Source of the DNA: Acanthopleura granulata
Taxonomy: Eukaryota; Mollusca; Polyplacophora; Chitonida; Chitonidae
Reading direction: 5' to 3'
Assembly (NCBI GenBank): GCA_016165875.1
Contig: JABBOT010000015.1
Coordinates: 3,765,928-3,829,927, forward strand
DNA: 64,000 nucleotides
Shown: positions 11,409-61,712 of the stretch, piece after piece
How the letters are laid out: each line of letters begins with the position of its first letter
Numbering within the stretch: the first letter of the stretch is position 1
Position numbers and translations under genes: made by a program
Notes under the pieces: model-generated
What the model was told of the DNA's origin: nothing
Database searches by the model: none
What the model saw: the letters and a program-made list of their open reading frames with translations, nothing else

Positions 11409-11560
11409 TATTTATTTCTTTGTTTATCTGATCGGTGTTTCACGCCATAATCAAGAATATTTCACTTATACGACGGCGGCCAGCATTATGGTGGGAGGAA
11501 ACCGGGTAGAGCGATGGAAACCCACGACCATCCGCAGGTTGCTGGCAGACCTTCCCACGC
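11409..11560 (-). repeat. SINE, 5'-truncated copy
   Basis: Tail plus central domain to CCGCAGGTTGCTGGCAGACC; the tRNA-related head is absent. Confidence 0.75.
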
Positions 11561-16394: not shown

Positions 16395-19300
16395 CTAGGT
16401 CTCCTTAATAGTAAATGTGCCAGTCTGGGTTTCCGTAGTGCCATTGTCCTTCTTACTCGCTTGTACAAGTAAGTGTAAGTCATTGAGCTCCTACAGAAAA
16501 AAAGGACAGAAAAAATAGTATTATCAAAGCTACTGTCTTAGCAAATTATCCAAATTACAAGTTACTATTTGCTCAGAGCACAAGAGAAATCTGAGAGAGT
16601 GCAATAAAAAGCAGAAAGAAATCAAGAGAAGCCAGAGAGACCACAAGAGAAATCAGGCAGAGTGCATTGGAAACCATAAAGAACACAAGAGAAGCCATAG
16701 AAAGCACAAGGGAAGCCTGACAGAGCACAAGAGAAGCCAGACAGAGAACAAGAGAAGCTAGACAGCCAGAGTGCAGAGAAAGCCCAAAAGAACACGAGAA
16801 GCTGGAGAGAGCACAACAGAAACCAGGCAGAGCACGAAAAGTTATACAGATTGCAGGGTAAATCAGAAAGCACAGAACAGGAGCCTGTCAGAACACTGGA
16901 GAAAGCAGACAAAACACAAAAGAATACCAGGCAGTGCTGGTAAAACCCCATGAAAAGCAAGGAAAACCAGAGAGTGCACAGGGAAAGCCAGAAGAGTGCA
17001 GAATGAACCTGTCAGAGCACAGGGAGAGTGCAGAATGAACCTGTCAGAGCACAGGGGAAAGCAGACAGTACACAAAGGCATGTCACACCTGGGTCCGAGC
17101 GAAATCCACATAAAACATAGGAAACCAGAGAGATCAGGGAAACAAAATAAAGTGCATGGGAAACCAGAATCAATGCATGAAAAACACACAAGGGAAACCT
17201 TACAGATCCCCATACCAGCCATTTGAGCTCTTCAAATTCTGACTTACTTCCCAGAGACTGCAAAAGCTTCCACTGACCTAGCTAGGGTTTAATCTTGGGA
17301 TGTGATAAAGAAATTCAGAATAAAATCACCTGCTCTTCTTCAGGGGTCAAGGCTGCATTGAGATCAATGTCTGGGTCAAGGACTGGTCCAGACTTGGTGA
17401 CAATTTTCTTATTAGAGGGCCAAGGTCGTGTCCTGCTGGATGTCGGCTGCCCAGTGTGGTTAGACGAGGTTTCCAGAGACGCATTCGGAGGTTTGCCAGT
17501 TTGCTGGGAAAAAAACAGGAAGTTTTCTTCTTTGGAAAAGTTTTCTGATTTTTTTTTTTTTTTTTTTTTTTCAGACAGATTAGATACTGTGACTGTTGTA
17601 TTTCAGTATTTATTTGAATGATATGTTTCACTGATATATGAAACCTCTTCACATGAAGTTGAAGTTAAAACCTAAACACATGACAATAATACAGAGGAAA
17701 GTGAAAGCCTTCTTTTATCTTTTTGACTCACTGGTGATATGTGTTTCCCTATTCTACTCACCAGTGATATCTGTTTACCTACTCCACTCACCAGAGACAT
17801 AAGCTATCCTAGTCCACTCACCACTGATATATGTTATTCTATTCATCACTGCTACAAGCTTCCTCAGTTCACTCACCACTGACATAAGTTTCCCTACTCA
17901 ACTCACCAGTGCTATAAGTTTCCCTAGTCCATTCACCAGTGCTATAAGTTTCCCTAGTCCACTCACCACTGACATAAGCTGGCCGCCCTCTGCTCACCAG
18001 TGACAGATGTTCCCCTAGTTCACTCACCAGTGATATGTGTTTCTCAATGGCCTGTAGCTCACACTGCAGCCTCTCCTTGTCACTCAGTTCCCTGGTCGAG
18101 TTTTCCCTCATGTGGATCTGGTGTTCTACCAGGGCCAGTTCATGTTTCAGCCTGTCCTGAACTGTTGGAGTGCCTACTGACGGAGGATACATCATGTCTC
18201 GACTGCAACAAACAAGGCGGTTCAATGGTGTTTTACGCCATACTCAATGATATTTCAATCATATGACAACGGCCAGCATTATGGTGGGAGAAGACCGGGA
18301 AGAGTGTGCAGGGAAACTCACGACCATTCACAGATCGCTGACAGACCTTACATATGATCGGAGAGGAAGCCAGCCTCAGCTGGATAAACTCACAGCAACC
18401 GCATTGGTACGACAAAAGTCGTTTATATATATTCAATGGTACTTAATAATTTCTAACTTACATAAGAGTAGAAGGAGGCTTTAGAGTGAGAATACCACAT
18501 TGTACATGTATGTGCAATACTAATGGCTTTTTGCTTCACTGTGTGGTTGTGGTTTCACACAGAAGCCATTAGTATCTTCAGTCAGCATTTATAAGGAGGC
18601 ACAGTTCAACAAACGATATCTATGTATGTAGGTCAACAACCTACTGCAAATCAAAATTTCCCAGAACATGTTTTACATTCTGAGATTAACTTCAACATAT
18701 ATTTAATATTTCTGAAAAACACTTCATTTAAGCAGTTTGTTAAAGACACCTTCAGTAGCGGACAATTCTACAAAACCCATCAAAAAAATGTAAATGTTCA
18801 ATACCTGTGACATCTCACAAAGATCTGATGTCATCTTGCACTTTTGCTAAGTGGATGGTAGGCGTCAATAAAAAAAATTCAAAACTCTGACTGACAGATC
18901 AGTAGAATGAAAAAGTCATTAACAGGGCTTCTTGTCACAGCCAAATATTGCATTACCTTTCCCAGAGCGTGTAAGGTTGTGACTTGTTGCTGGGTTCCCC
19001 CTTAAGGTGTGTTATGGGGGGCATGGCCACCATGCTAGTGAAGGGCTCTGCATTAGGGAACAGCTGACTGGGCACGCTCTCCACGGCAAACCGGGACGGC
19101 GTCTGTACAGAGACCGGATACGGGCGCGTTGTGGGTGTGACAGCTGTGACTGCGGTAACCATGTACGAGTCCTGCCAAACAGAAAGAGGGATTTCTTGTC
19201 AACATACTAGAGAATATTTTATACATGTGCACACCAAGGTCTGTGTTATGGGTGGAGAAAGCTGGAGCCTCAGGAGTAAACTATCTACCTTTGACAAGTA

Positions 19301-22300
19301 AATTTACAGACAATACTGCACAGTGAAGGCTGAATACCATAAATATTGTTCGAGTCAGAGGAGGAAATGATAATCCACCAGACGCAAAGCATCGAATGGA
19401 TTATCATTTCGACCTCTCACGAGAACAATATTTATGGTATTCAGCCTTCAATGTGCAATATTCTATTTATTATTTATACCCTAACAGTATCATGATTTTG
19501 TGTACTTTAACAAGTTTTCAGTATTTCTTCCATCCGTAGGCTGTCACACACATGCCTACAGCGTGATGTCGTGTACATGACATGTTACATGACGGTGTAT
19601 CTCCTTGCATGACGTGAGAATGTAGCCGTTGAGTGAACTTGCATTATGAAGTCATTCCCTTGAGATCAGATTGGAACTTTATCAAATAAAATGTTTCTTT
19701 TTTGACATAATGATGCCTGGATGTCAAAATAACACATTTATCACTGAAGGAAATGCTGGGATTTCACTCATGTATAAATAATAAATTTGTTTACCTATTT
19801 GACTGCTGTACTGAAGAATACTTCACTTATACAATGGCGGACAAGCACATGTACAACTGCAGAGGAAGCCAGCATGGACTGGACATAAACTCACAGCGAC
19901 TGCATTGGTGAGAGGCTCCTGGGCATTTACACTGCTCTAGCACACTAACAACCTCAGGCACGAAGGTACCACATGTAGGTACACATTACTCACCAGCTTA
20001 AACCATCAAGCATGGGAACAACGGCCACAAAAATGTTGTAAATCAATCAGAGCTGAAATATATCTGACCCTTTTAAATTAAATGTGGTTTTGGCACTTCT
20101 TACAAGCTTTTACTCTTTTATCATTGTGAGAAAAAGTCTAAAATTTATAAAAAGACTGAAGATTCCTGTATTTGAAACATACATCTGGATCCTGCAGAAA
20201 AATAATGATCGCTTGGTTGAGTGATTTGCCAAGAAAACGGCCAATGTCATGGGCAGATGAAACAGGGATATGTCTGAGCCAAACCAGCCACACCTGTGTG
20301 TGTTAAGCCCACCTATCAACTGAGCTAAGTTGCCAAGAGGCTGGATTACACCAGTCGCACGTGACCATTTGGATTGCTGTGTGACTGTGTTAACTCACAC
20401 TCTTTGCTGTCACCAGAACAGGGTCTGAACTCTTCAGTTTAGCTTTGGATGTTCTTGATATCGGACCATATTTAGACACAATGGGCGGGTCGAAGGGGAT
20501 GAAGTAGGCATCGTCCAGTGAAGACGCAGAAGACTTGGTACAACCATCCATACTCCTGAAAAGAGCATATACGATTACTCACTTCCACAGCAAATTACAT
20601 GTTCAAGGTGTAAAAAAGTGTTTCCAGCTAGAGTTTTACGGCACATTATCAGAGCAATGACAGATATTAATATTTGTAGCCACATTAAAGACAGCTGGCA
20701 GTGTAATGTTTATTTCAGAAGAATAATGTTAAATGTACTTGCACCTAAATAACTGACAGTAGAGGATATGCCATTAAACAAGCAAGCTTGCAGAAAAATT
20801 CAAAGCAATTTGCTGCAAACTGTAATGTTAAAAAAACCATGCAGTGACACACACAATGGCATTTAACAAACAATTTGCGAACAAATTCATGTCACTTTTC
20901 AGCGAACTGTAGTGGTGTAAAATTTAACTGCTGGGATATCTGCCTTGACATTTAAAAAGCAAAGCTTTTCAAGTTACATCATAGTACTCAGAACATATTA
21001 TCGTTCAAGTCACTGGCCATTTGAAAGAACATTGTGAAAATAAACTCTCTTTTTTTGTGACACCAATGACACGGGTAAGGCCGCACATGACAGGGCTTGC
21101 ACTGCTCCACATCCTGTGAGAGCTCCTGACACAGGGTAGAGCTTCCCTTTCTGACGGTGTGGCAGAGGGACTGCTCCACATCCTGTGAGAGCTCCTGACA
21201 CAAGGTAGAGCTTCCCTTTCTGACGGTGTGGCAGAGGGACTGCTCCACATCCTGTGAGAGCTCCTGACACAGGGTAGAGCTTCCCTTTCTGACGGTGTGG
21301 CAGAGGGACTGCTCCACATCCTGTGAGAGCTCCTGACACAGGGTAGAGCTTACCTTTCTGAGGGTGTGGCAGAGGGACTGTTGGAAAAGGACTTGGACAT
21401 GACACGGCTGGGACTTTCCGTGTTCTGTGAGAGCCCCTCACACCGGGTAGAGCTTACCTCTCTGTGGATGCGGCTATGGAACTGTTCCATGTTCTGCGAG
21501 AGCCCCTAGCACAGGGTAGAGCTTACCTGTCTGTGGATGTGGCTATGGGACTGTTCCATGTTCTGTGAAAGCCCCTAGCACAGGGTAGAGCTTACCTCTC
21601 TGTGGATGTGGCTATGGGACCGTGGGATAGGGCTGTGGACATGACAGGGCTGGGACGCTCCATGTTCTGCGAGCGCCCCTGACACAGGGTAAAGCTTACC
21701 TCTCTGAGGGTGTGGCTGAGGGACTGCTGGATAAGGACTTGGACAGGACACGGCTGGGACTTTCCATGTTCTGCGAGAGCCCCTGGCACAGGGCAGATCT
21801 TACCTCTCTGTGGATGTAGCTGAGGGACTGTTCTATGTTCTGCGAGAGCCCCTGGCACAGGGTAGAACTTACCTCTCTGTGGATGTAGCTGAGGGACTGT
21901 TCTATGTTCTGCGAGAGCCCCTGGCACAGGGTAGAACTTACCTCTCTGTGGATGTGGCTGAAGGACTGTTGGATAAGGCCGTGGACATGACAGGGCTGGG
22001 GCTTTCTGTGTTGACATCTCTCATCTGATCTGACAGTTCTTTGTATAGGTCGAACTCCTCCTCAGTTTCTGTTTCCGAATACTTCTGCAAAAACAAGAAA
22101 ACAGCACAATGAGGATGGGAAAATACAAGAAATCACACTGAGTTTCGGGAGTGATTGTAAGTTGGGAAGAGAATGACCGGCCTAGTCTTGTACATTTTGG
22201 AGGAAACTCTAGCATTTGGAGTCAATTGGCTGAGAGAAATTGTGAGTGATGCAGAATGCGAAAAATAAATTTTGGTGGCTTATGATGAAAAAAAAAACAA

Positions 22301-25300: not shown

Positions 25301-28300
25301 TGTCTATAAAAAATATAACCGAATATTCCATGTCATTTTTCCAATTTTAAAATCATGCCGACATTCACACTGCGTGTGTAGGAAACCGTGTTTAGCGTTC
25401 TTTTATTAAAACCCAGTTTAATATGAATAATACGGTTTCAGAGCTTCGCGCAGTCTACCTATATCAATGCAAATATCAACAGGATTATTAAAATTTAATT
25501 TTAACATGAGATGAAATGCTCCATGGTAAGGTCAATGTAAGTTTGTAAGCCTTTCATCCCTTCATTCTGGTGTGATGTTAGAGTAAGATTCTCTTATATC
25601 CAAATACTGGGCTACTAATCTGAACTGGCCAAATGAGTCTGCACTTGCCCTTTAGGTGCGTTAGTTTGTGAGAGCCCCTCCCCCACTAACTTGCCTGAGC
25701 TTGCGTGAACCTGCAAGACTTCAGAGGGCTAATAAGCCCTCTGAAGCAAAGTCTGTTGACACGGTGAGAGCTGACTCGGCAAATTTCACAGATTTCTCAA
25801 ACTGCTCTATTTCCAAACCACAAAACGGCCTTAACATGATACTTTCTATGGCAGTTTTTCTTTCTGGCTCGTGGGTTGTACTTTTAAAAATGGGACTGCG
25901 ATGAAACTTGTGACCATTGACGATTTTTTCTTGTTGCTCTACGAGATGCTTTTTCTTAGGACAGTTCACACAAAAAGTGCAAACTACACTTTTCAGTCCT
26001 CAATTCTTTAAGGATGTTTTAGATCCCTTATTCCACTGGTTATAAAAAAATACAACAAATGCAACAAGCAAATGGAAAGCATGAGCACAAAATACAATGT
26101 ACATGTAGTTGACAAAACCAATACTGGTAACTACGCAAAGACTTAAGCGAGTCAAAATTTTGTTTTTTGAGTCATCCGGAACAAGCAGAATCTGAAAATG
26201 GACTTTTGGGGGGGGGGGGGGGAATTTTAAAGTACAGTATTTACACTAGTGATGGACTAGTACCAATGAGAGGGTGCCAATGAAGGTAGATGGAAACTGC
26301 AGGCTCTGCATGGAAATTTCCACTGCTGGGGGCTGTTTCTCAAAGCAGTCGTAATGTTAGGCCGGTCACAAGTACGAAGGCGGCGTATGCCGTAGTATGG
26401 GTTGTCGTAATGATTAAGCCGGCGTAACGTTGCGATCCCTTTAAGAGACAGCTTACGAAAGTAAAATACAGTCTGCGAACATACAATTACACGTAAGACA
26501 ACGAATGTAATGTGAGAAATGATCCGTTCTCCAAATGTCGGCAGAAAAATTCTTTTTCATAAAACTACAAGCTGTAATATGACATCAAAGAACATGACGA
26601 TTAATGAATTTAAACAAAAAACAGCCACTTGCTCTTCAAGTAAAGAAAAACAAAAGGACAATGTAAATCTCTTTGGTGACGGTTAAAAAGAGTAAGCCAG
26701 CAAATGTGATTGGATTACCCTTGCCAGACTGTCTCTCATTTCCATACTGTATTTGTAATTCTGCATGGCGATGTCACCATACATGCACTGATTAAGAATA
26801 TAGCCTGGAGACACCATATGTCACCTGGTGAAACCATGTGTGGTGCAATGACACCACACCTCTCCTGCTGACACCACATGTAGATTGGTGACACAACGTG
26901 TGGCCTGCTGACACCACATGTTACCTGGTGACAACCCATGGGACCTGTTGACGCCACATGGCCTATTGACACCACGTGGCCTGTTGACACCACATGTAGA
27001 TTGGTGATACCACATGTAGATTGGTGACACTACAGGTGACCTGTTGACACCACGTGTGGCCTGTTGATACCACCTGGCCTGTTGGCACCACACGTGGCCT
27101 TGTGACACCACATGTAGATTGGTGACACAACATGCGGCCTGCTGACACCACATGTAGATTGGTGACACAACGTGTAGATTGGTGACACAACATGTAGATT
27201 GATGACACAACATGTAGATTGGTGACACAACGTGTGGCCTGCTGACACCACATGTTGCCTGGTGACAACCCATGGGACCTGTTGACGCCACATGGCCTAT
27301 TGACACCACGTGGCCTGTTGACACCACATGTAGATTGGTGATACCACATGTAGATTGGTGACACTACAGGTGACCTGTTGACACCACGTGTGGCCTGTTG
27401 ATACCACCTGGCCTGTTGGCACCACACGTGGCCTTGTGACACCACATGTGGCCTGGTGACACTACAGGTGACCTGTTGACACCACATGTCGCCTGTTGAT
27501 ACCACGTGGCCTGTTGACACCACATGTGGCCTGGTGACACTACAGATGGATCAACCACAATACATGTAGACCAACAGCAGCACATGTCTATCACATAACA
27601 TTATAATTTCCTAACATGGAAAACTGGTAACCACATAAGGACATTTCCACTTGAAGTAAACTTTGCATGAGGCTTTCTACGTAACAAGCAATCAAAAATT
27701 AACAGAATTAAAGGCCTGTTTAGCTACAGTGGCTCACCATCTTTCAACATACATCAACATACTTAACAAAAGCCAAAAAAACAATACAAGAAAAACAACA
27801 ACAGAAGATAAGAAGTTCTATGTCAAAGAAATATGCAGAAGTCAATATGGAATTGTTCATCTGGTGTCTTTGCCAAGCCTCTCCCTTGGCTCCTCCTCGA
27901 TTTGCCCCTTCCCTATCTCCTCCCCCTTATTATCTGATTGAGAGCCCTCACTAACTGTAACTACCTCAGTGTCTTTGCCAAGCCCCTCCCTTGGCTCCTC
28001 CTCGATTTGCCCCTTCCCTATCTCCTCCCCCTTATTATCTGATTGAGAGCCCTCACTAACTGTAACTACCTCAGTGTAGGCGGAGCCTCTGGTGGACGTG
28101 TCAACTAGAATGTCAGAGGTGGGCGTGTAGGACTCCCCGGTGGACCACGGGGTGTACGCCTTCCCCTCTCGGCTGGGCCGGCTTTCCTCAGAGCCTGGAA
28201 ACAGTCAGCAAAAGGAGGAGGGACTGGACTGAATGGATAATTGACAGATCATGTGCCTCAAATCAACATCACAAGTTATTACTTCAAAACCTAGTGTGTT

Positions 28301-34300: not shown

Positions 34301-37300
34301 TACGGTGTCCTGTATGGCAACCTATAAGTTTCCTTTGTGTACCGAAAATGTACTTTCAGAGACTCAGACAGGATATTAAAATGTTCTCCAACCTGAATGA
34401 AAGGATTAAATTGATATTTTTTTTTAATTTGGAAGGAAGGAAAGAATGAATGATTGAGGGTTAATGAAATGTCGTCAGTTTCTCCGCCATACAGTGGCTG
34501 TTTCGACCAGGAAGTCATTTTAATGCAGCGAGCTTCAGTCGCATGTGGGTACAAATAACCAGTGCATTCTGCGTCACAATTTTAATCTCATAACATTACA
34601 TCCGTCTCTACGTCAGCCTGTCGTAAGTGCTTATCCTCATAACCTGACTCCAACCTGACAAGAACTGGAATGTTTAACCACATTCTGTCTTAAGTTTCCT
34701 GGTCAAACTCAATCTCCTTTCTACCATGTCTTGAGAAACTACGACTGACAGTAAAATTTCCAGGACGAAGAATTTCCCTCCAATTCTCTGCCTAACTGTT
34801 GCACAACATAAGCTTTTCCCTGATATTTGCATTTTTCCAGCAATTTTCTAACAGTAGGTGACCATCATCAAGCCAGAAATCTCTAACCACACAGACTCGT
34901 ATCTCGTCAATGTATATTTATTATCTTAGCAAGAAACGAGGCCAGTGTAGTATGGGACTTTTGGTGGGGCAAGGGAAACTAGTACTAGTTCATCAGCTGT
35001 ATTCACTACATGTACACTAACATGTACACCTGCCATATGAACAAATAAAATAAGCAACGTAGAAATACCACCACGCCGCCAGCAGTGATTCTCCTCTTGG
35101 TTTTCTTTAACACTGTTAAGAATTTATGGTCAACGATTTTGTTTTTGTCGTAACGGATAACAGGTTGCCTGAGTTCAGTTTTGTGATTCAACCTATATTG
35201 AGGAAACTGACTCAAATATTAACACTTTGAACATGTACACTGCCTAACCTAAACCCATTTCAATAAGACTAAACACATTCAACTGAACCCAATCACATCC
35301 CGATGTACCATTTAAATGCGTTCTTCCTAAACACATTCAACTGAACCCAATCACATCCCAATGTACCATTTAAATGCGTTCTTCCTAAACACATTCAACT
35401 GAACCCAATCACATCCCAATGTACCATTTAAATGCGTTCTTCCTAAACACATTCAACTGAACCCAATCACATCCCAATGTACCATTTAAACGCGTTCTTC
35501 CTAAACACATTCAACTGAACCCAACCACATCCCAATGTACCATTTAAACCCACTCTTCCTAAACACATGCAACTGAACCCAACCACATCCCAATGTACCA
35601 TATAAACGCGTTCTTCCTAAACACATTCAACTGAACCCAACCACATCCCAATGTACCATTTAAACGCGCTCTTCCTAAACACATTCAACTGAACCCAACC
35701 ACATCCCAATGTACCATTTAAACCCACTCTTCCTAAACACATTCAACTGAACCCAACCACATCCCAATGTACCATTTAAACGCGTTCTTCCTAAACACAT
35801 TCAACTGAACCCAACCACATCCCAATGTACTATTTAAATGCGTTCCTACAAACTCTAACCACCTTGTCTATTCATTCATCTCTCCTATCACTTCATGCAT
35901 CATTTAAACACAATCCAGTTACCGTTCCAACTCCTCCTGTGAGTGGGCAAATGTACAGTTAGCTCCCCTAGGGCAGGAGTTCTTCTGGGCGAAGTCACGG
36001 CACAGGCTGGTTTTATACTTGGTGCTGTGGAGTGCTGGCAGTTCTGGCTTCTTCTGACTATGGAAGTGGAGGAAGTCTACAAGGCCCTGTACCACTGTCC
36101 TCACCGCCTTCAGCACCGCCTCCAGGTTCTCCCAGGTGGGAGGCGGCGCATCTGCAGGTGGGAGAGACAAAAACAGTACAGTAGACAAAAGTGTGACACA
36201 GAAAAACCTCCCTCAAGGTTTGCAGGTGAATTTTGTACAAAAACAAAGGCATTACCAAAGGTATTATATTATAAGGAGAAACAATAGTAAAGCTGGCAAT
36301 GGTGTGATACAACTGTACTTTCAGGTTTTTCCCTGCTGGGAGCGTGGGTATCTGTTGGTGGGTAGATTAAAACAAAAGACAAGGCATCTGAAAAAACCAA
36401 TGATCTGGAAGTATGATCTGAGAGAGTACAGGGTAATACTAACCAGTGCAAATTACTCGCTAATACCACTGTTTGGTACAAAGATACAAATGTGCATCCC
36501 AAAACAAAGATTACGTTTTTCAGGGAAATGCAGAAACACCCTGCGAAGCAGCAGTTCCAGGTGGGGGCATATACCTGGGGAGGCATCACCTACCTGAGCA
36601 GGGTGTACATACCAGCCTGGTGACAGGTCACCACGTACCTAGGGAGGGGTCACATACCTGGAGAGGAGAGGAGAAGTTCCTGGTCTGGGGCCACCACATA
36701 CCTGGGGAGGGGTCAGATACCTAGGGGGGAGTTGTGTCTGGGGAGGGGTCACACACCTGGGGCGAGGGGTCTCATACATGGGAGGAGTCAAGTGTCTGCA
36801 GAGTCACGTACCTGGGAAAGGGTCACAAAATTGGGGGGAGGGGCATCACATACCTGGGGATGGGTCAACATTGGCCAGCAGCTCAAGGTGGGGGCATAGA
36901 CGAGCCAGGTTACCCACGTCACCAGTCCTCTGTAGGGCAATGACAAGCTCGTTAACGCTCTGAGCAAACGACTGAGGAGTCTGCAACTAAAACAGGCAAC
37001 ACCTTGTTGTGACTGATAATATAGAAAGTAACAATAATATAGTAACCAACTGATATTTTATCACTCCTGGTATGATCACGTTACAATGATCCATACTGTT
37101 ATGAAAACAGTAGTCAGATTGTGACTGTGTCAGTTTTATCCTACTTCCCTATGGGAGAGCTGTGATACGTTTGTCAGGATACCTTGGCTGAATTCCTATA
37201 TTTTTCTTATTTTCCAAATCTCTCCCATGTAAAATTCATCAAGTTGAGGTGTCCCCTTTCCAATTATTCTCCTATTTTCTCTATCTCTCCCATGTTGTCA

Positions 37301-40625: not shown

Positions 40626-41754
40626 CTGCAAAACAAAAAAACAGTTCGATGATAAACAGTAAACAACCTACCTGTAACATTTCACCCCAAACAAATTTTT
40701 AAAGGCAAAATATCATAAAATACATGTAAGCAGGATTAGCTGTTCTGTGGCTCAACTGACCTAACAATTCTTTATTTTTTTCGAACATCCAAATGATCTG
40801 CAAGGAGCTGGAGGTGACAAATAACATTGCGTTAAATGGATGAATGATGATGTTTGCCGATTTTTAAAGTTTACTGAACTGCAGGTCACTAAAACTGTCA
40901 TACTTGAAGGTTGGGCAAATTCTGATTAGTTTTATAGAAAATTTTCTTGTCGAAAAGCTTTATTTTTTTTTTTTCATTTTTTTAAAGAAAAATCTTACTC
41001 AAGGGCTACCTCGCCTGGGTAAAATTTGCTCTGATTTCACCTCCAGTAGTCTAGTCAAGTGAACTAAAGACAGTGCTGTTGATTGGCTCACAGCTGCATT
41101 ACTGCAAATCTACGAATATGGTGTTGGTGTACTCTGCAATCTGTAGAACAAGCTATATTTTGAGGGCAATGCCAGATAGCATGAAAGCCATGCTTTAAAA
41201 TGAACTGAGGTCAATTATGAAACAGCGAGCCTTCAACACATGTGTTATATTAACAATCAGCGATATTTAACAGCTGTCCACATATACGTTTGCTTGCAGA
41301 CAATGTGTCATTCCCGGTCAACTCAGCCTGTCAACTGTGCCAGTTTAGTAATCAAGCATTATAATTTGGAATTCAGCCACTATATTATATGTTTTACACC
41401 AAATGGGTAAAACGTCGGACAAATCAGTGGGGTGTCAGGTGGGAGGCTTCCTTGAAAATTAGATTGTGTCACATGGAAATAAAACATGTGTTAGGTATAC
41501 TTACCCCAGGTCTCTGCACAGGTAAATGTGCAATGATCCAAATACCTGAAACTTTTCACCTCCCTCGATCATAGTAACAACTGTTTTACCCGACTGACAT
41601 CACGGTGTAAATCCAAAATATTTTCACTTCATTAAAAATACTTTAAAGATGTTAGTAACTTTGGCCACATTGACAGTTGCCATTTTTGATAATCTGATCA
41701 ACAATAACAGCACTTTGTCCACAGAGGCTGTTCTTTCCATGCATTTCCACTTAC

Positions 41755-41830
41755 TATGTCCTGTTCTGGGAGAGTGAAAGTGGGCTCCGGGTGCCGCCAT
41801 GTTACCGCGCAAACAGATAGGACAAACATC
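41755..41830 (-). promoter_or_regulatory. Putative Roquin first (non-coding) exon and YY1-like site
   Basis: On the - strand a TAACATGGCGGCACC stretch (+ strand GCCGCCATGTTAC near 41793-41806) matches the YY1/TISU-type motif. It is followed by a good donor, CATA|GTAAGTGG, at 41755/41754. Splicing to 40625 would join it to the ATG exon. The ATG in this motif opens a frame that overlaps the Roquin start in another frame. Transcript ends are inferred. Confidence 0.4.
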
Positions 41831-42245
41831 GGCGGAAGGCACGGACTTTCAAATGGCCTACCATCAACACGAAACGATATTCTTCTAGAAGAGATACTAT
41901 GTATTTGTCACAAATTGTGTCTTTAACTGACTCTGTATTTATTAGGCGCAGTTTCACAATATTCTCAAACTCTGTGTCATGCCTACATGCGTTGTTGTTG
42001 TAGCGATATGGTAAAGTTACAACAATATGCATAAAAATTTAATGGCAACCTCTACCAATAAAGCTTTCTGTCTGGTTAACTTACCGGTACTTTCAAACAC
42101 CTCTCGGTGCATTTAATTTCTGTCCAGTCAACTTCTAAATAATCGAAGCTGCTGCAATATAAGATGGATTATTTCAGCTAACGTCCATGGTTGCCCTCAG
42201 CATTTCCGGGGAGCCCCTGCTTGGAGTTATCTCCCCATTTCCAAA
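41830..42245. promoter_or_regulatory. Presumed bidirectional promoter, Roquin and NUBPL
   Basis: Roquin (-) and NUBPL (+) are head to head. The putative Roquin first exon and the NUBPL ATG at 42246 are about 415 bp apart. No TATA box is obvious in a suitable position on either strand. The role is inferred from gene orientation alone. Confidence 0.45.
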
Positions 42246-45200: not shown

Positions 45201-48200
45201 GTAATAAGAGGAGCAGGTTGTGGCCGAGTGGTCAGGGTTCTTGAGTTTCTAGCCTAATTCACACGAGACGAGATTTCATTCCAGTATTCCGAGAGGGAAT
45301 TTTCTTGATTCCACCACTCTCATTGTACTCTGTGCAGTCTTGTCCACATGCTTTTTGTTGGTGGTTTTTTTTCAGGCAAATAAATAAATGAGGAATAATA
45401 ATAAGTAGCTTGAGCCATGCCTGTCATATTTTGGTGATAATCCAGTCAGCCAGTCATGACTGAAAAATAAAAAAATAACGTTGTGTTGGTCGTAAATTAA
45501 AGTATGTTATTATTTAATAAAGGTAAGTGATGATTTTGTAGTCTACACTGAGTTAATTATACATAGAATTGGCATTTTAGCTAAACTTTCTGAGGACCAT
45601 GTTACGAAGTGTGTGTATTTTACTCATCTGTGAATAATTGCAGATATGTGCTCGCGTAATATTATTTGTATCATTGAGAATGATAAAGAAAACCTGTATT
45701 TGTCTCCCTTTTGTCTTGTTCTCAGTCTTGCAGGGTGGGTTTGTTGGACGCTGACATCTATGGCCCCTCCATACCCAAACTGATGAACCTGGGAGGAGGG
45801 GTGGAACTCACAGAGCGTAAGTCAAATATGTGAAAGTGAAATTGTATGTTTTTTATTTATTTTGATTGGTGTTTTACACCGTACTCAAGAATATTGCACT
45901 TATACGAAGGCAGCTAGTATTGTGGAGGAAGGAAACCGGGCAGAACTCCGGGGAAACCCACCACCATCCGCAGGTTGCTGGCAGACCTTCCCACTTATGG
46001 CCGGAAAGGAATCCAGCACGAGCTGGATTTGACCTCACAGTGACGGCATTGGTGGGAGGCTTCTGGGTCATTGCGATGCGATGGCACGCTAACTGACTGA
46101 TCCACGGAAGCCCCGAAGATGAAAGTGCAATTTTCAGAGTGATTTTTGTACCTTTTTAATTTGATTTTTAAGACAAAACTACATTGGCTGGGTTTATCAA
46201 GTTCACAGCTTCACAGAATGTAGTATTTTATCAGTGTGCACAGAATAATGTAATAAGAGTAAACATCTTACAAACATGGCCTGGCCCTGCGGTGGAGGAC
46301 GTTAGGGTGCTAGTGCTGTACAGTGACCCTGGTGACTCTCATTGATGTGGTCGTTTGGAGTTCAAGTCCAACTCATGCTGGCTTCCTCTCCAGCCGTATG
46401 TGGGAAGGTGTGCCAGCAACCTGTGGATGGTCTTGGGCCAAATGAGTTAATAATCCTAACCACATTATTTCACTTTGTAATAAACAGTAACATAATGTTT
46501 TACAAGGATTCCATTCTCACCAATTATATGTTATGGCGAAAGAAAGAATTAGTTATGTTTGATGCTGTTGCCCTATGGTTTTGCCAGTGTAAACTGCTGA
46601 TTTCATTTCGGAAATTTCTTTCATTTTTACAGAGCAGCTGATGAAACCATTAGTTAACTATGGCATTAAGTGGTAGGTAGGTGTTGTCATTGTCCAGAGC
46701 TTATACTAATGTAGACACAAATTGTCCTATTAAATTTCTACAATATAGACACAAAAAGTTCTAAATACTTTTTTCCTTTTATATTTATAACTTTCGCATA
46801 GTAAAGTTTGAAAAAGTAAAGGGTTGCTCCCATCCCTACATGTACGTCCTATTCTCTTGATTATTGCGATACATGATATACCCATAGACATATTTTACTC
46901 ATGTGTCAGCTTAGTCTGTTGCTTTCAACATGTCTGCAGGCTTTTTGGACTCCCATATTATCAGAATTGTCTGTTGCTTTCAACATGTCTGCAGGCTTTT
47001 TGGACTCCCATATTATCAGAATTGTCTGTTGCTTTCAACATGTCTGCAGGCTTTTTGGACTCCCATATTATCAGAATTGTCTGTTGCTTTCAACATGTCT
47101 GCAGGCTTTTTGGACTCCCATATTATCAGAATTGTCTGTTGCTTTCAGCATGTCTGTAGGCTTTTTGAACTCCCATATTATCAGAATTGTCTGTTGCTTT
47201 CAGCATGTCCATGGGGTTTATAGACTTGTGTATTTGCAGCATTTTCTGTTGCTTTCAGGATGTCTTTGGGGTTTATGAACACCTGTATTATCAGCATTGT
47301 CTGTTGCTTTCAGCGTGCCCATGGGTTTTTGGACTGCTGTATTATCAGCAATGTGTGTTGCTTTTAGCATGTCTGTGAGGCTGGTGGACTCATTTACCAG
47401 ACTCGCCACGATATGGCTGAGATATTGCCGATGTGGCGTTAAGCCATAATCATTCATTCATTCATTTACCAGAATTGTCTGTTGCTTTCAACATGTCGGG
47501 GAGGGGGGGGGGTGTGGACTCATGTACCACCATTCTTAGTTGCTTTTAGCATGTCTCTGAGGTTTTGGACTACTGTATTGTCAGCATTGTCTGTTGCTTT
47601 CAACATGGGTGGGGGGTTTTGGACTCATGTACCACCATTGTCAGTTGCTTTCAACATGTCTCTGGGGTTTATGGACTACTGTATTGTCAGCATTGTCTGT
47701 TGCTTTCAACATGGGTGGGGGGTTTTGGACTCATGTACCACCATTGTCAGTTGCTTTCAACATGTCTCTGGGGTTTATGGACTACTGTATTGTCAGCATT
47801 GTCTGTTGCTTTCAACATGGGTGGGGGGTTTTGGACTCATGTACCAGCATTGTCTGTTGCTTTCAACATGTCTCTGGGGTTTATTGACTCATGTATTGGC
47901 ATTGTCTGTTGCTTTTAGCATGTCTATGGGGTTTATGGTGGACGAGAAGTCGCCTATTGTCTGGCGTGGCCTGATGGTGATGTCTGCGATACAGAGACTA
48001 CTCAGGCAGGTAAGAAGTTATTTCATTGGGTAAGGAGGTTACTTTGACAGGAATAACTGTAACCTATTTTACAAGGCACTGTATCTGTATAGTAGAAGGT
48101 TATTCTTTAAACATATATGTAATCATTTTGTTTAAACAGAGCAGTGTTTCAGCATAAAGAGAAAACATGAACCATGCTTATATGTGCAGATTGAAACTGG

Positions 48201-51200
48201 CTGAGGGGTGAAAAATGCATGCCTTTCTGTCACTGTGCGAGGTGAAGGCTAAAGCCCTTCCTTGCACAGCGAATTTTCAGATTTTTCTTGGCTGTCAGTG
48301 ATCATGAGACATTTGTGTCAATAAGTGATGGACAGGGTTCATATTGCCATTTCAGTAGTGTAACGTTCTTTTGAGACCATCGATGTAGTGTGTATATGTA
48401 TACTTCACATGTGGAAAAGTTGGTCATTAACTTACCAAAGGTTGGTGGTTTATACAGGGTACACCACCTTCCTCCGCCCATAGAAACAACTGCCATTGTA
48501 TATAAAGTGTGAAAGTCTTGGGTATGACTTAAAGCAGCAGTGATAAAAATAAATAAATATATGGGTAACAAAAGCACCTTTCCAGCGCTTATGCTTGCAG
48601 AGTTTAGATGGGGATTTCTCGTTGGCTCAATTGGTGGAAGACTGGACTTCTACGGTGAAGATCAGCTGGTCTGAAATCCCACGGAGTAAAACTCTTCATT
48701 CATTACACATGTCAGGAGGCAGGACTGTTTCAGATAATACCTGTCAGTCATGTTGTAGGTGGCGTGGGGTCCTTTAGATTACCTGGTGATTGACATGCCA
48801 CCAGGAACTGGCGACGCCCAGTTGACTCTTTCCCAAAATATCCCTATTTCAGGTAAGGAAATGCAAAAGAACATGTAAAAGAGGGGACATCTCTGATTTA
48901 CACAGTTTCACGTAGCACTGTACGTAGGGTGTAGGTTGTGTATATGTGGTACAGTATCTCCTGATTGCTCTGATCCTCTTTCTACAATTGTGGGAAACTA
49001 AAGATCTGACATTTTAAGCATCTTGATCTGTGAAATGTAAGTTTAATGAAAACTTGTCTTTCAAAGCTCATTCTTGTACAGAAAAATAGCTGTCACTCGC
49101 ATGACATTTACAGTCACTTCTATCGCAGTGTGCATAAGGTGCACTGACAAATTTTGACATTATGCAATGAATCTAGTGAGGAGATACTAATTTATTTTTG
49201 TTGTGTGTAGGGATGCTCCATGAAAACATACTCAGAACAAAATCTATGAAAAGTTTGTGTTGAAAAAACAAAACCAGCTAATATTCATCTCATTGCAGTA
49301 GTGAGTATTAGATAAAAGCAGGGACCTCTGTGGCCAAGGGGGTTAGCATGGTAGAGCGGCACAATTACCCAGGAGCCTCTCACCAATGTAGTCATAAGTT
49401 CAAGCCCATCTCATGCTGGCTTGCTCTTCGTTTGTATGTGGGAAGGTATACCAGCAACCTGCAGTTGGTTGTGGGTTTCCTCCGAGCTCTGCCTGGTCTC
49501 CTCCTACCACAATGCTACCCTTATGTGAAATATTCTTGAGTACAGTGTAAAACACCAATCAAATAAATAATTAGATCAAAGGTCTTCTGAAAAATAGTGG
49601 GAAAAATGTGGCATTTCCTTGTAGAAAAAAAAATGATAGCGAAATTTTTAAATAAAAATTTTTTAAATATTTTTAAATAAAATTTTTGCATGTGCAGGCA
49701 TGTACAATGAAGAAATATTTGTTTATCTTTATTGCAAAATTTTTATAGAAAACCAACAAATGTTCATCTCGAATAGCTGGAAAAATGTCTATGAACTTCC
49801 TGCCATTCAGTTGTTGAGTACAATGTAAAACCCAAACACACAAACACTGAAAAAACGTTTCTATCTTTTGCATGAAAGCCTAGAAAATGTAATACTATCC
49901 AGATTTTTAATGAAAATTGTTACATTTTTCCTAGGAGCTGTTATAGTGACCACCCCTCAGGACATTGCCCTGCTGGACGCTCGTAAAGGGGCGGAAATGT
50001 TTCGTAAGGTGGAGGTCCCCGTCTTGGGCCTCGTTCAAAACATGAGTGTGTACGTTTGCCCGAAATGTGGACATCAAGAACATATATTTGGGGAGGGAGG
50101 AGGTCATCGTGTGGCTCAGGACATGGGACTGGATGTGTTAGGTATGTGTGTTTGATATCATCAACTCAGTTGTTGTTGCATGATATATTGTCGCTGTGCA
50201 TGTCTGTCTGTCTGCTTGTCTGTCAGTATACATCCATGCTGGCACATTTGGGCAAGGATAAGGTGATTTTGTAGCTAAGGACCTGTAGGTTTGATGTGTT
50301 AGGTGTGTGTGTATTTTATGTCTTGTCAGTACATGTGTTTATGTTATCAGCCGAGTTGTTGGGACATGATATATGGTCTGTCTGCTTGTCTGTATGTCTT
50401 TGTGTATAGTGCTCATTGTTGTTAAAACTGTACATGTATCTGTTATGGTTTGTTTCTGCCATTGTGTATGCAAGGTCCAGGTGTGGTGATATCTAAATGC
50501 ATTGTTATATTTCCTGTCTGTCAGTCTGTCTGTCTCAACAACACCATATACATGTTTATCTGAGAATAGCTTCATTCCTTGTTAAGGAGCATTGTTGTCG
50601 TTTGCTCCCACAGTTCATGTTTGTGACATTGTTACTTCCATTTTAATATTGTCGATAACATCAGTTTCCACATTTACTGTCCATGGAAGAAAATCACTGT
50701 TGCTCATGTGACCAGTAGTGGTTAGAGAGTCCGCCTCATGGTCAGGTGATCCAGGTTCAAGTTTGGGTCATACCAAAGACTTTAAAGATGGTACTTGTTG
50801 TTGCCTCGTTTGGCGCTCAGCATGGTGTTAGGACTGGTTGGGCCGGCATCAGTATAATGTGACAGGGTGGGGTGTCATGTCTGGTGTCTTTGGCAAGATG
50901 TTCCAGTGGAAGCAGCACTTTGGCTGCATTTACTCGCTCTACCACAAGAAGACACACTATATGCACACACCAGAAGGACTCCTTGTCGTCATATGACTGA
51001 AATATTGTCATGTATGACATTGAACCCCCAAGCACTGGCTCACTTACATGACCAGAGTGTCATGCAGGATAATGATTGGGTTAAACAGGGTGCACTAAAG
51101 AGGGGTAACTGTTAGAAGGTTTACTTGAAAGATGTCAGATCAAACCTAGACCTCCAAAAGGCTAGAAAACAGACAACAGTTTTTCAGTGAAGCTTCACTA

Positions 51201-55100: not shown

Positions 55101-55128
55101 CATACGCAGTTCTATCACTTGAACAACC

Positions 55129-56262
55129 ATGGCCAGCGGGACGGATTTTGTTGATGCTAAAATCCGGCAAAGAAAAGTTCTCTTATTTTCGAAATCGTAC
55201 TCGCCCGACTGTAAACGAGCCAAAGCAATCCTCGACGAATACAATCTGAAAGAGTCGGCCTTTGAAGTGGTCGAAATTGAAAGGCGTCAAGATTGTACCC
55301 AAATACAAAATTATTTCCAGATTTTGTGTTTGACAGACAACAGATCGGTAAGTTCTGTTTTCTCACTCTTCTTCAAGGCTCATTAATATTACTTTTTACA
55401 ATACCGGTAGGCCTACTTAATTCTTCCAGCAAAATTTAACGATAGTGTCCGAGTCCTACATGTAGCCTACTTGAAATCCAAAATGACAACTCCCGACTTT
55501 TGCCCTGTGTTGTGCGGAAGGAGACAAAAATTATAGTGAGTTTAATTATGTAAGAACAATGATGATTTATCCCCCACCGCCTTTCTTTGCGAATTTTGAA
55601 TATTAATAGCTGCCAGTGGAGTTTGTTTGTCCCGCCTGGGCATGAGAGAGATCCAAGCTTTCGGGCAAATGAAAGAGTTTATTCATATTGACTATGCTGT
55701 CGTCATTGTTTTAAATCTGATGTGATATGATTTTTTTTTAATTTTTTTTTTTTTTTTGACCACACAGGAACAACCTACGGAAACAAAATTAATCTCTTGC
55801 ATTTTTGCCTGGTACAACGACATTTAAATAGGCCTATCGACTTGTACATGTATGCGCCATTTCTCTTTATTCTTGCCGTATGCCGACATCTTTAGTCAGT
55901 GCTTCAAAGGCCTGCATATTATGGTTTTCTTGCAATACACACACATGTACTTCAAGCAGATTAAAATTCTACACATGCATGACAAAGTCACTCATGTGGT
56001 GTGTTAAGCATGATTAAAAACTGATCGGAAAATTGCAATTACCCGGGCCTTTAACCGTAGTTTTTACCATCTACTTGAAGGAGGTATGACAGGCCCCCAG
56101 CTTGAATGTGATTGATGCCTCTATGCATTTTACCGTGTTTATGCTCTGCAGGTTCCGCAACTTTTCGTCAAAGGAAAATACATAGGAGGCGAAAAGGAAA
56201 TACCCATTCTCCACGACAGCGGAGAGTTGAAAAGACTATTTGCAGATGCTCGTGCCTTGTGA
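55129..56262 (+). CDS. Glutaredoxin-like protein with SPDC active site
   Basis: Two exons, 55129-55347 (73 codons) and 56152-56262 (TGA), phase 0, giving 109 aa, the usual single-domain glutaredoxin length. VLLFSKSY at 17-24 leads into residues 25-28, which read S-P-D-C. The first, nucleophilic cysteine of the classical CPYC site is serine (codon TCG) while the second, C28, is kept. The cis-proline is P75 (SVPQLFVKGKYIGG) and the glutathione-binding Gly pair is 85-86. Dithiol glutaredoxins reduce glutathionylated proteins through the first cysteine, so classical activity is doubtful. Two further cysteines, C56 and C67, could contribute. The start ATG has favourable context (AACAACCATGG) and precedes the first beta strand by about 15 residues. 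No targeting peptide is evident, so cytosol is likely. Family assignment is firm; function is open. Confidence 0.88.
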
Positions 56263-57697
56263 TATATACTGAATCGTCTACTTCGTGCAGATTTACCTCA
56301 GGGACTTCAGTTTACGTCATGTTTACGCCAGGACGGAGGGAGTTTATTACTGAGGTGACGCTGAATGGTTGGATGGGTGTGATTGTAAAGGATGAAGTGA
56401 ACACAACGATAACTATGAAAGTGAAATTCTTTTTATTTACAATGGAAGTCTGTATGAATATCTGTTGGTTATATACAATGTATGGTATATCTATATATAT
56501 TTAAGATGCACTGTTTTTTGTTGTTGTTTGTTTGTTTTTTTAAGTACATAGAAGACACCTTCATTTAATGTCAACATTTTAACGTTTCTGTCCTTTTCAC
56601 GTTGTTGTGATAATTTTTATGTCATGGGTTTACGAAAACGTTGAGAATTTCCTGACATGAAACTATACTCCTTTACAAAATAATAAAAATTTATACGTTG
56701 TTCTAGTTGGCATCGTATGGAAGAAACCAAATCGCGATCATATTCTTGAATACGGCGTGTGAATACATGTATTTACAAAACTATCCGAATACATGGAGTG
56801 ATTGGTACACACTTTTTGCGTTGCTTTTTATGGAGCAACGATAGAACATACGTATACATATAGATTTATCAAGCGAAAGCCTTGACGTCATGTTCAACGC
56901 ATCTAACATACTCGAATTTACCGATTCGTGATTTCAGCGGTCACAAATTCCATCTGAACTGGGTTGATTTCGGCCTACCTTCGTTTAAAAATCATCCAGC
57001 GCAAAAAAGCATCAAATATGCATGCTTTGTATAGATGAAAATATTGGACACCCACCGTGAAAATATACCATTAAAACAGAATGTTTTTTCCTTTGATTTT
57101 CTCAACAAAATAGACGTTTTCGACATAAGCTAACACATGCGCAGTGCCTTACGCTGTATGGCAAAAGATAGTTCCGCAGTACCTGATCCACTTAAGATAC
57201 CAGAAGTGGGCCAGTTACTACCATATTAGGCTAAAGATGGCAAAAATAGCCAATATAAATTTTTTGTGACTGTCGAGGCAATTTTGTAGCAAAATAACAG
57301 TTCTGTTAACTCTGATCTTACAAATGCAGCCTGCATCATAACGCGAGGCAACAAAGAAGCACCGTCAGTGCCGTGCAAAATCGAACAGCTTTCTACGCTT
57401 GGGTTGTTCTGTCGAACTTGTCTTCATTCCTGTGTATGTGGCCGCGTGTGCATAGACTGCAGCATTTACATACTTTTCATAACATACAGCGCTGAGACAG
57501 TGTAACAGATTGTGACGCCCTCCCCCTACTGTTCCCACGCGTACGATAAAAGGTATAATATACACCCAACGCCAGGAAAAGAGGAAGTATTGAGAACGTC
57601 ATCTGCAAACTGATCCCTCAAACATATTTTATTTGAGGGACTATAGTATTTAATGACTTGACTGATAGTTCACCACGGCCATCTAGGTAACCAGATC
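56263..57697. other. Intergenic between glutaredoxin and SLC5 gene
   Basis: AATAAAAATTT near 56681 is a candidate glutaredoxin polyadenylation signal. The hairpin TCCCTCAAA...TTTGAGGGA at about 57612-57640 lies just past the SLC5 stop on the - strand. Nothing else was recognised. Confidence 0.5.
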
Positions 57698-60600
57698 CTA
57701 ATGATAGAAGGCAATTAAAAAGACGGCTACGGCCAGTAAAATGACGGCGTTGACATCCAGTAGTATCCGAGATCGTCGCTTCTCCCGAATATTTGTCAGC
57801 CGTTTGATTTGAGCCGCCATTTCTTCTGCCGTCAGCTCTGCCGATTTTACACCGGACAGTCCACAGCATGTCTCCAAAACCCTCCGCCATCTTGGTTTCT
57901 GTCGAGGCGTGGAATCTAAGTTAATGTAAAAGGGAAATAAACTAGGATCGTTTAAAAAAATTCATGCAGATTACATGTACGTGTCAACATTTTATGAAAA
58001 GCTAATACCCATGACTTACATGCCTCTAAAGCAAGGTATATATATATATGTATGTATACATATAATGGCTATTTACTTCTATTGCGGGCACTCCGCTCGC
58101 AAGCACAGACTGTAATGAACAGATCCCTTCCTTTATGCCGATGGGACAACAAGAAAAAATGCAGTGAGTCTTTTCCACAAAAATCCATGATGTATATAGT
58201 TTTTTCAACACACATACCAATAACGACTATATCTGCAGCGAAACGTTGGTTATCCGTCCTGATAATCTGGAAAATACAGTTAGACTGACCAGGCACGTAA
58301 AGCTTTTCAATAAATGTACAGCGTAGATTAAAATATTTCAGAAGCTCTGAAAAGCTGCGCCTAAACCAAACCCGGTGCGCAGCTAAACAGAAGTACACGT
58401 ATGATCACACGAAAGAATGTCTTATGGCAGATCGCCGAAAGCAGCAGAGTGGATTAATCATACTCCTGGACTGAACAGATGGTTCCTGGGGAACAGATAT
58501 AATGCTGCTGATGTTCCAAAGAGACATACATAACACATACCCCCTACAAAGATGACGGATTGCATTTTCATCGATCTAACGGATTAATACTTTCCAGAGT
58601 ATGGATTAATTCGTTACAACATACAATGCAGTATTTCGTTAGATCATTGAGAAAGCAATCCGTCATCCTTCAAGTAACGAGCTCAACGGAAGATTTTTTT
58701 TTTAAAGGTATATGTTCTCTATACTTACCATTCTTACCACCGCTTCTCTCCTCTAACCAGTCTGTGTCTTCATCGTCAACAGGCATGTCGCGTGAATGTC
58801 GCGTCCACCACGTGACCCGATGTAACTGTGGAACAAAAACACGACAAATTTGTCAAAATTCTATAATACCGGTTCAGTTGCCGTGCAAATAGTCATAGAT
58901 TTTGTTCAGTATCTGAGTGGCACTGGTGACTGTTTCCCTTTGAATTTGTCCAGTCTACACTATGCAACTTTCGCTCCCATATTTAGATGTCGATTCTCAG
59001 TTCTATCGTCTCGCAACGCCGGCACACATCCTGTCTCATGTGAACATACAGAAAACATTCCGTGTCCCCCAGTCTTACTCCAGCCAATATTTTCCATGGT
59101 GTCTATATATCAGTGTAGGAGATCATATCTGTCTGAACGTACAGACCTGCACAAATGTGTGCGCTGCAATTTCGGCGGCCCCATGGTCATTTCTTTGTAG
59201 CCTACATGCCTTAAAGACCATAAATGTCTGAAGGTTATTTACATCTAACATATTTATTTATTTATTTCATTTGAATTTTACGCCATACTCAAGAACATTT
59301 CACTTATACGACTGCAGCCAGCATTATGATGGGAGGAAACCTGGCAGAGCACGACTGAAACCCACAACCATCCGCATGTTGCTGGCAGACCTTCCCACGT
59401 ACGGCCAGAGAGGAAGCCAGCATGAGCTGGACTTGAACTCACAGCGACCGTGTTGATGGGAGGCTTCTGGGTCGTTACGCTGAACTAACGGGCTAGTAAC
59501 TGGCTACAAAACAGGAAAAAATATTTTCCAGTCCAACTAAACAAAGACCTACAAACCAATTGGTTTTCAGGCTTCCTGTAGCCAAAACTTGGAAACATGT
59601 ATGTTTTCTGATTCACACATCAATGTAGAACTGAGTGTGTCAGCGTTCGAACGAACGTCATTTGGTTGAGATTGGAATATTTCCAGACGATTCTGTCACC
59701 TATGTCCAAGATCATCGCCCGATGTTAAAACGAAACCTTCCCCTGGTGCTTTTTGTTTGGTACTAATGCGGTAACACCATAGCTTTCAATGTGAAATTTA
59801 GAATTTAACCAAAATAACTAAATATTATCCTTAAGTTTAAAAAAATGACTATTTACCTTTTCCGGAGACCGAGCTGGAGTAAAAAGACTGATGATGAGAA
59901 TTAGTATGGCTGTGACAGCAATCTCTGTAGCGGCCACATACAGGAAGTGAACCTTGACCACGAATGGTCTGTCATCCGAGACGTCACAGGCCGGGGCCGG
60001 GTAGACCACGGACAACACCAGACGGGTCACACCCACAAGCTGACCAGCGATCATCCCGTAAAACGCCCCCTATAGGGTCAGGGAATAAAATCACAGTTAG
60101 AGGTAGACATTCGTACATTTGTGGCAGCTGTTCCACGTGGTCTGATTTTGGTTTCTAAAGATTGCGATTGGTCGCAAAATTGGATCGTACATGGAGGACA
60201 CATCTCGTCGTATACAATGCTCCAGATAAGCGTTTTTATGGTAAGCTAAGTATTCAAATGACAGTTCAGGTCGTCAACCAGTGAAGAAGGATTTGATTCC
60301 AAATCGATACATAACAGTTTAGAAACCACAACGATTTTTTCCAAAGTTGTAATGGATAACCGAAGCCAGATTGTAGACCAGAAAGACAGTGAAAGGCCAG
60401 ATTATCGTCTTACCTAGCAAATAGACAAAGTATAGATTTTGTTTACCGGTTCGGTGGCTCGTTTCCAAAAGAAGCCTAAGATGAACACTGTTCCCCAAGG
60501 TGGACCCACACAGGACATAAGCATTTGCCAGTACTGCCACAGTTCTCCCCCTTGGGCAGCTTGCATGATGGGAATCCACAAGATGGCGCACCCAACCAAT

Positions 60601-61712
60601 GCCAAAACAACAACCCTGCATAAATGGTTATAAATATGTTCAATTTTTTTGGGACATGTGAAGAAAATTAATTGGTAATTACACCTTTTTTGAACCAGAC
60701 ATAATTCATATATGCAACATTACTCACAGTCCATAAAATGATTTATTTAAGAACATTATCCGTATGATGTTTGTATAAAAATATTGTACCATTAGGCTTA
60801 CATTTTTTTTTAAATTAAGCGAATTCCAAATATTTATTGGAATACAATACAAACTGTTTAACATGCCCTTTATTACGGCATATATAGCCCCTCTATATTT
60901 TTCTAAAGGCCTATATGTAACTGCCAGTGGAACACATAGATAAGCTAACTGAGGACAGAACAGTTCTAAACTGCCGAACTAGGAATACTTTTGCTCAGCT
61001 TGTGTTATGGGAAGGTTGTCAATTCAACCGTCAGTAATTAATGATTCTCACTCGCTGGTGTTCTTACTACCTGTGTCATCTCACCTGACAACAATAAACA
61101 ATTTCCACTCACGCTGTTTGCTCCATGTACATATATCACCTTATCTGCCAACAATCAACGATTGCTACTAGCTAACGTTCTTTCTACATGTATCACCTGC
61201 CAAGAATCAAAATTCCCACTCGCTGGCGTTCTTTCTACGCGCATTCCAACTCCCTGGCGTTCATTCTAAATGTATCTCTTTACCTGCTAACGATCAACAA
61301 TTCTCACTCGATGGCGTTCTTTCCAAATGTATTACCTGCCAACGATCAACGATTCCTACTCCCTGGCGTTCTTTCTAAATGCATCACCGTACCTGCAAAG
61401 ATTAGTAATTCCCACTCGCTGACGTTGAGTCTTAATGTATCATTCTACCTGCCAATGATTAGCAATTCCTACTCGCTGACGTTCATTCTAAATGTATCAC
61501 CTTACCTGCCAACGATTAGCAATTCCCGCTCGCTAGGGTTCTTCTAAATCTATCACATTACCTGCCGACGATCAACAATTCCCACTCGCTGGCGTTCTTT
61601 CTACAACGTGTCCAGAGGTCCATGGTAAAAATACTACTGGCGCTATTGAAGACTGACGTCAGGGTACTCATGCAAGCGGCAAACAACGCTGCCAACATTA
61701 AACCCCGAATAC
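57698..61712 (-). CDS. SLC5-family sodium/solute cotransporter, C-terminal exons, 5' partial
   Basis: Five exons: 61712-61562, 60615-60447, 60069-59857, 58825-58729, 57915-57698 (TAG), phases consistent, about 282 residues. The first exon has [20 protein letters not shown] and [11 protein letters not shown], the conserved SLC5 stretch that contributes to the Na2 site (paired serine/threonine) and leads into later helices. Then [41 protein letters not shown] and the extracellular RPFVV segment. LTWWTR precedes a charged linker. The last exon carries the membrane-proximal CCGL motif and a final helix, [20 protein letters not shown], ending at His. Length and order match SGLT-type members (SLC5A1/2/9-like): plasma-membrane sodium-driven sugar or related transport. 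Substrate cannot be deduced. The 5' exons are past 64000. Confidence 0.9.
58551..58667. mobile_element. MITE-like element, 117 bp
   Basis: Ends GATGACGGATTGC and GCAATCCGTCATC are perfect inverses over 13 bases, with inner ATCTAACGGAT versus TTCGTTAGAT. Same family as 8108-8236. It lies in the last SLC5 intron, next to the exon at 58825-58729. Confidence 0.75.
59249..59505 (-). repeat. SINE, full length, SLC5 intron
   Basis: TTATTTATTTATTTCATTTG, GCCAGCATTATGATGGGAGG, GTTGCTGGCAGACCTTCCCA, TGGACTTGAACTCACAGCGA and tRNA-like end GGGTCGTTACGCTGAACTAA. Confidence 0.8.
61040..61600 (-). repeat. 57-bp array of SLC5 exon/donor copies
   Basis: About nine units, mostly 56-57 bp apart (junctions at about 61335, 61392, 61448, 61505 and 61561). 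On the transcript strand the unit contains AGAACGCCAGCGAGTGGGAA and TTGTTGATCGTTGGCAGGTAA, copies of the end of the exon at 61712-61562 and its donor GTCGGCAG|GTAATG. At least seven decoys keep CAG|GT (GTAAGG, GTAGAA, GTACGG, GTAATA, GTAAAG, GTGATA). Read-through hits TAA at the junction. Confidence 0.88.

Follow-up and report, generated by a model that had tools for sequence, protein, structure and literature searches.

Tandem arrays at exon junctions in the window

The window, which is the whole 64-kb stretch of Acanthopleura granulata DNA that was analysed, carried the genes Roquin and SLC5 on the reverse strand and NUBPL on the forward strand. The NUBPL of the window was 95% identical to that of the chiton Liolophura sinensis. 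Six exon junctions in the three genes adjoined a tandem array whose unit contained the splice site of that junction together with exon bases (Table 1). All six had been proposed in a first-pass annotation, and all six were recovered by TRF, by reading of the sequence and by extraction of the copies. The affected junctions were five donors and one acceptor, the latter at NUBPL exon 6. The unit periods spanned 19–105 bases and the TRF match rates ranged from 61% to 99%, most being below 90%; the two copies at Roquin exon 11 matched at 99%. The sequences and periods were unrelated, which argues for a recurring process rather than one repeat family, as the annotation had held, and the same kind of array was also found in genes far from the window. 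A weaker seventh case was observed at the donor of NUBPL exon 8, where the copy scored 37, whereas the highest score among 234 null pairs was 26, and was not reported by TRF.

Table 1. Coordinates, units and splice-letter retention of the junction arrays; positions are those of the window unless a contig is named
Feature	Position	Strand	Repeat unit	Junction	Splice letters in copies	Placement of the junction
Roquin exon 5 donor array	36695..36867	−	TRF period 19; junction copies 42–64 bases apart	Last exon base 36854	GT in 5/5	Spliced protein alignment, agreed by 4/4 full-length reference proteins
Roquin exon 11 donor array	27864..28077	−	105 bases, 2 copies	Donor 28070	GT in 1/1 (measured at 28057, within the array)	Reading-frame continuity only; spliced alignments give 28057, 27952 or 28070 depending on the reference
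Roquin exon 12 donor array	21101..22000	−	69 bases, 10 extra copies	Last exon base 21942	GT in 7/10	Reading-frame continuity only (exon 22085–21942)
Roquin exon 15 donor array	17726..18043	−	30 bases	Last exon base 18028	GT in 7/7	Spliced protein alignment, supported by 3/4 reference proteins
NUBPL exon 6 acceptor array	46914..47934	+	51–55 bases, two blocks (46914–47375 and 47506–47934)	First exon base 47919	AG in 6/17	Spliced alignment with the Liolophura protein
SLC5 donor array	61243..61603	−	57 bases	Last exon base 61562	GT in 6/7	Spliced alignment with a human SGLT1 segment
SLC5 exon	61562..61712	−		Donor position common to 10 paralogues		Homologous to part of human SGLT1
NUBPL exon 8 donor (weaker seventh case)	50114..50319	+	Degenerate copy, lag of ~160	Last exon base 50141		
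Unconventional myosin gene, three junction arrays	C17		43 bases with 12 copies; 31 bases; 80 bases			
Chaperonin gene, one junction array	C8		90 bases			

The real splice site had been described as lying always at the exon-side end of the array. Four of the six junctions were placed there by homologous proteins, and the reading of exon 5 continued into exon 6 as in human Roquin-1; protein homology at these four junctions agrees with splicing at the exon-side site. The remaining two, at Roquin exons 11 and 12, were placed by the reading frame only. These exons encode a poorly conserved part of the protein, in which the junction between donor 28070 and exon 12 was in frame, and the exon 12 peptide matched none of the 359 proteins with which it was compared. 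The exon-side position is partly a matter of geometry, because whenever a junction-spanning segment is copied in tandem, one of the copies remains attached to the exon.

The further statement that each gene presents a run of near-identical sites held for the donors, where GT was present in 26 of 30 copies, and failed for the NUBPL acceptor, where AG was present in 6 of 17 copies and in none of the six nearest to the real acceptor.

Other features were also observed in the window. A Roquin intron contained a 20-base array (26803–27544, TRF) rich in CACATG and CACGTG motifs. An integrase-like open frame (63448–63825, reverse strand; Pfam rve, E 2.1e-10) represented a retroelement remnant upstream of the SLC5 exons. 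A dispersed recurrent element, probably a SINE and recognizable by the chance translation ...AASIMVGGN, occurred on both strands at many sites (e.g. 11469–11640, 45860–46090, and 59280–59480).

Junction arrays outside the window

The chaperonin and myosin-head families were chosen blind to repeats as an outside sample. A total of 142 exon edges was placed in them and 132 were tested; of the ten that were dropped, eight lay at four matches on C10 and C83, taken for processed or non-genic copies, and two at a duplicated C14 locus. Each anchored edge was picked by its splice-site score near a protein-profile match and needed 400 known bases on the intron side; as a consequence of this choice, some edges are misplaced by up to some 50 bases. 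A junction-crossing copy scoring at least 30 was found in the adjacent 400 intron bases at 8 of the 132 edges. When exon edges outside the window were compared with the intron of another gene, a score of 30 was reached in 0 of 526 comparisons. The junction-crossing matches were more than chance similarity. At control positions in the outside loci, copies of score 30 were found at 4.2% of 1,352 intronic and 1.9% of 264 exon-interior positions.

Sequence reading of the eight matches gave four clear cases, three donors and one acceptor with units of 31–90 bases. Three of these were defined by TRF at the junction and one was not reported there. The genes concerned, an unconventional myosin and a chaperonin (Table 1), were named by reading of their translations. 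Of the four matches that were dropped, one reflected a muscle myosin gene in which an entire exon is duplicated, two came from acceptors that had been misplaced, and one was weak.

De novo exon prediction served solely to search for additional cases, and predicted exons with more than 40% of their length in arrays were excluded from the counts. Of the 66 exons predicted at the chosen cut-off, 44 had an edge that was also anchored by homology. The 26 predicted edges in the window included three positives, at 50141, at 18028 and at 36151, the acceptor of exon 6. The match at 36151 (score 32) was set aside, being probably a chance match between C-rich stretches as judged by eye. None of the 28 predicted edges in the 120-kb flanks had a junction-crossing copy, and the single positive among 46 new predicted edges elsewhere lay inside an array already counted.

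Three further features were seen in the outside loci. In the C2:21748252 region (L014 and L015), a whole myosin exon was present twice, ~390 bases apart and each with its own splice sites, which likely represents a pair of mutually exclusive exons. A reverse-transcriptase-like open frame on the reverse strand of L006 (6662–7558; E 2.4e-4, below the Pfam cut-off) may be part of a Penelope-type element. The region L012:2800–8500 contained dense long open frames on both strands, three of which were compared with Pfam and gave no match; it may be a large mobile element or a virus-like element that has integrated.

Frequency of arrays at junctions

Around the window, arrays with a period of at least 12 covered 12,966 of 184,000 bases; elsewhere they covered 9,237 of 139,115 (~7%). 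Since a many-unit array holds only one real junction, a fair null is obtained when one unit per array is placed at random in the sequence from which the extra copies have been removed. For this blind placement, the outside sample of chaperonin and myosin loci amounted to 139 kb and contained 41 arrays and 132 junctions; the raw count was five junction-containing arrays against 1.78 expected (P 0.029). Two of the five rested on misplaced acceptors; by reading of the sequence, the arrays ended 4 and 9 bases short of the acceptor (C8:7198043 and C9:20282964). The corrected count of three does not exceed chance (Poisson probability ~0.26). In the window, where the 49 junctions of Roquin, NUBPL and SLC5 were used and other genes at the window ends were left out, six junction arrays were found, with an expectation of 1.25 (P 0.0002). 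Where Roquin is poorly conserved, the reference proteins disagreed on several edges, and one position was taken for each. The window had been chosen for this feature, which weakens its excess without removing it. When arrays that crossed or touched a junction were compared with those that started 13–200 bases away, the former looked 1.9 times as dense outside the window and 2.5 times as dense with the window included (zone of ~60 bases). The cases were clustered in single genes: Roquin had four, and a single myosin gene accounted for three of the four found outside.

The arrays are thus real and recurrent, and junctions show no sign of being spared. A preference of arrays for junctions, roughly two-fold, may exist. 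The suggestion of the first-pass annotation that junctions seed arrays was not sustained, because the outside count was close to expectation and the window had been selected.

Splice junctions might be favoured birth places of arrays, e.g. through replication or repair slippage at nascent RNA, at R-loops or at short repeats flanked by GT or AG. The excess in the window, the uncorrected outside count and the roughly doubled density of array starts point in this direction, and position-blind seeding does not predict clustering in single genes unless local rates differ. Against it stand the corrected outside count, the 0 of 28 flank edges, the 0 of 10 SLC5 paralogue donors described below, the choice of the window for the feature and the concentration of the cases in few genes. 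Favoured birth at junctions is considered unlikely on this balance.

Donors and acceptors

Strict cases comprised eight donors (five in the window and three outside) and two acceptors (one in each), from 24 donors and 25 acceptors tested in the window and 66 of each outside. The two-sided binomial probability of this split was ~0.11, and the donor excess is suggestive only. Besides the two arrays that ended short of an acceptor, two others started 0 and 8 bases inside a donor. Since such near misses occurred at acceptors and donors alike, they do not separate the two ends.

A more elaborate proposal is that exon edges, donors above all, would be hot spots of minisatellite birth in this lineage and that the order of transcription would decide which arrays survive. 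Decoy donors would be made after the real donor and would be harmless, while decoy acceptors would be made before the real acceptor and would have to lose their AG. The split of eight donors against two acceptors and the absence of AG from the six NUBPL copies nearest to the real acceptor are compatible with this proposal, which is regarded as unlikely.

Retention of splice letters

When the three outside donor junctions (GT in 17 of 19 copies) were added to those of the window, GT was kept in 43 of 49 donor copies. In an offset test on eight arrays, retention of the splice dinucleotide exceeded the average for the remaining offsets in five and fell short of it in three. In each of the eight, between 34% and 81% of the remaining offsets equalled or surpassed the splice dinucleotide in retention. 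The test treats all unit offsets alike and used few copies per array, so that a weak effect could be missed. Splice letters were not kept detectably better than the other letters of the unit, and selection for spare sites is therefore unsupported.

Selection for redundant sites had been offered in the first-pass annotation as a possible mechanism; the copies would then serve as spare splice sites or in regulation. The GT counts and the five arrays above the mean agree with it, but the offset test, the low AG retention in the NUBPL acceptor copies and the lack of the SLC5 array in all ten paralogues fetched argue against it, and selection of this kind appears very unlikely.

SLC5 paralogues and the age of the array

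Ten SLC5 paralogues of the same genome were taken from 89 family matches, where a match ended at the position of the window donor or a match broken by a stop spanned it. The intron position of this donor was common to all ten. A junction-crossing copy was present at none of the ten paralogue donors (scores 12 to 22); one paralogue contained an array deeper in the intron. Three other matches of the family (profile 291/292–396) had one open frame through the position and therefore no intron there. As the ten paralogues share the intron position without the array, the SLC5 array is younger than an intron common to eleven genes, and thus was not the origin of that intron.

This bears on the idea that introns are born when segments of exons are duplicated in tandem (Rogers-type intron gain, with AGGT segments), which has been proposed from the lancelet mirages (PMC3087553, as far as the consulted part of that report goes). 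The units in the chiton do carry exon bases and a splice site, as this model requires, and the three SLC5-family matches without an intron are in line with it. The model would have the intron absent where the duplication is absent, whereas at SLC5, the one junction with such a comparison, the intron was present without the array in ten paralogues. Intron gain is judged highly improbable.

Least probable of all, and scarcely credible, is an artefact in which false tandem copies arose because the assembly was wrong or haplotypes had been merged. The assembly published for Acanthopleura granulata, in the portion of its report that was available, used MaSuRCA together with optical mapping and had to deal with heterozygosity (PMC7850002), and the exon 11 copies are nearly identical, but assembly errors would give near-identical copies, and most of the six arrays match at less than 90% and many copies are present.

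Origin of the arrays

The junction arrays probably arose by ordinary tandem duplication, blind to position, that happened to straddle a junction, and were then likely tolerated because the exon-side site stayed intact. Duplication of a donor-spanning segment would give the order exon, site, intron piece, exon piece, site. The exon-side site would remain where it was, so that no change in the messenger is required. Additional copies would arrive within the intron, added by slippage or unequal exchange, and would then drift, and the exon-side site would presumably be the one used in the RNA. The survival of junction-spanning duplications would be roughly equal to that of duplications confined to the intron, and duplications within coding exons would be removed. 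The arrays are real, and their position at junctions is probably accidental, a by-product of repeat-making.

Comparison with known systems

To our knowledge, junction-spanning minisatellites have so far been described mainly in lancelets. Like general intronic minisatellites and VNTRs, the chiton arrays have the same range of periods, arrays making up ~7% of this DNA; they differ in that splice-site copies arise only where the unit spans a junction.

The lancelet (amphioxus) "mirages", according to the sections available of two reports (PMC3087553, PMC3902484), are minisatellite-like tandem duplications across exon-intron boundaries, at donors as well as acceptors. They are described there in Adh3, the globins BflGb6 and BflGb9, and troponin C, with similar repeats in PGBD5. 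Many, not all, of their units keep the AG or GT, and the unit length varies by gene, with 10–72 bases in Adh3 and 150–160 bases in the globins. In the same sections, regular splicing is given as undisturbed and length instability is reported.

When the chiton arrays were compared with this description, their units likewise spanned the exon-intron boundary, and cases were found at the 5' and 3' boundaries of introns (five donors and one acceptor in the window, three and one outside). Many but not all of the units kept the splice letters (26/30 for the window donors and 6/17 for the NUBPL AG). The units of 19–105 bases in the window and 31–90 bases outside fall within or between the two lancelet ranges. 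The chiton differs in being a mollusc, in having six or more such junctions in one 64-kb window, and in that tests of density, paralogues and retention accompany its arrays. Splicing and length instability have been reported for the mirages, whereas the chiton arrays are known from the sequence of one haploid assembly.

In human segmental-duplication genes, variable minisatellites with units of ~30 bases occur, some of them at exon-intron boundaries, and are associated with modifications of exons and introns between recent paralogues and with alternative transcripts (PMC2812944, in the part of the report consulted). The exons of conserved genes in the chiton, unlike these, are unchanged in length wherever a homologue is available for comparison. 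Among the matches listed in the open-licence literature, a scope outside which most subscription papers lie, no molluscan report of junction-spanning repeats was found, and the words "tandem" and "intron" were absent from the main text of the chiton genome papers examined.

Junction-spanning minisatellites occur in several genes of a chiton. The outside rate of 4 of 132 anchored edges (4 of 216 with predicted and paralogue edges) would, by extrapolation, mean thousands of such junctions genome-wide. The arrays would be likely to trip gene annotation and the mapping of short reads across splice sites. Furthermore, each array places between 1 and 17 natural copies next to a splice site that works, and together they would allow the rule that the exon-side site wins, and any difference between donors and acceptors, to be tested without constructs.
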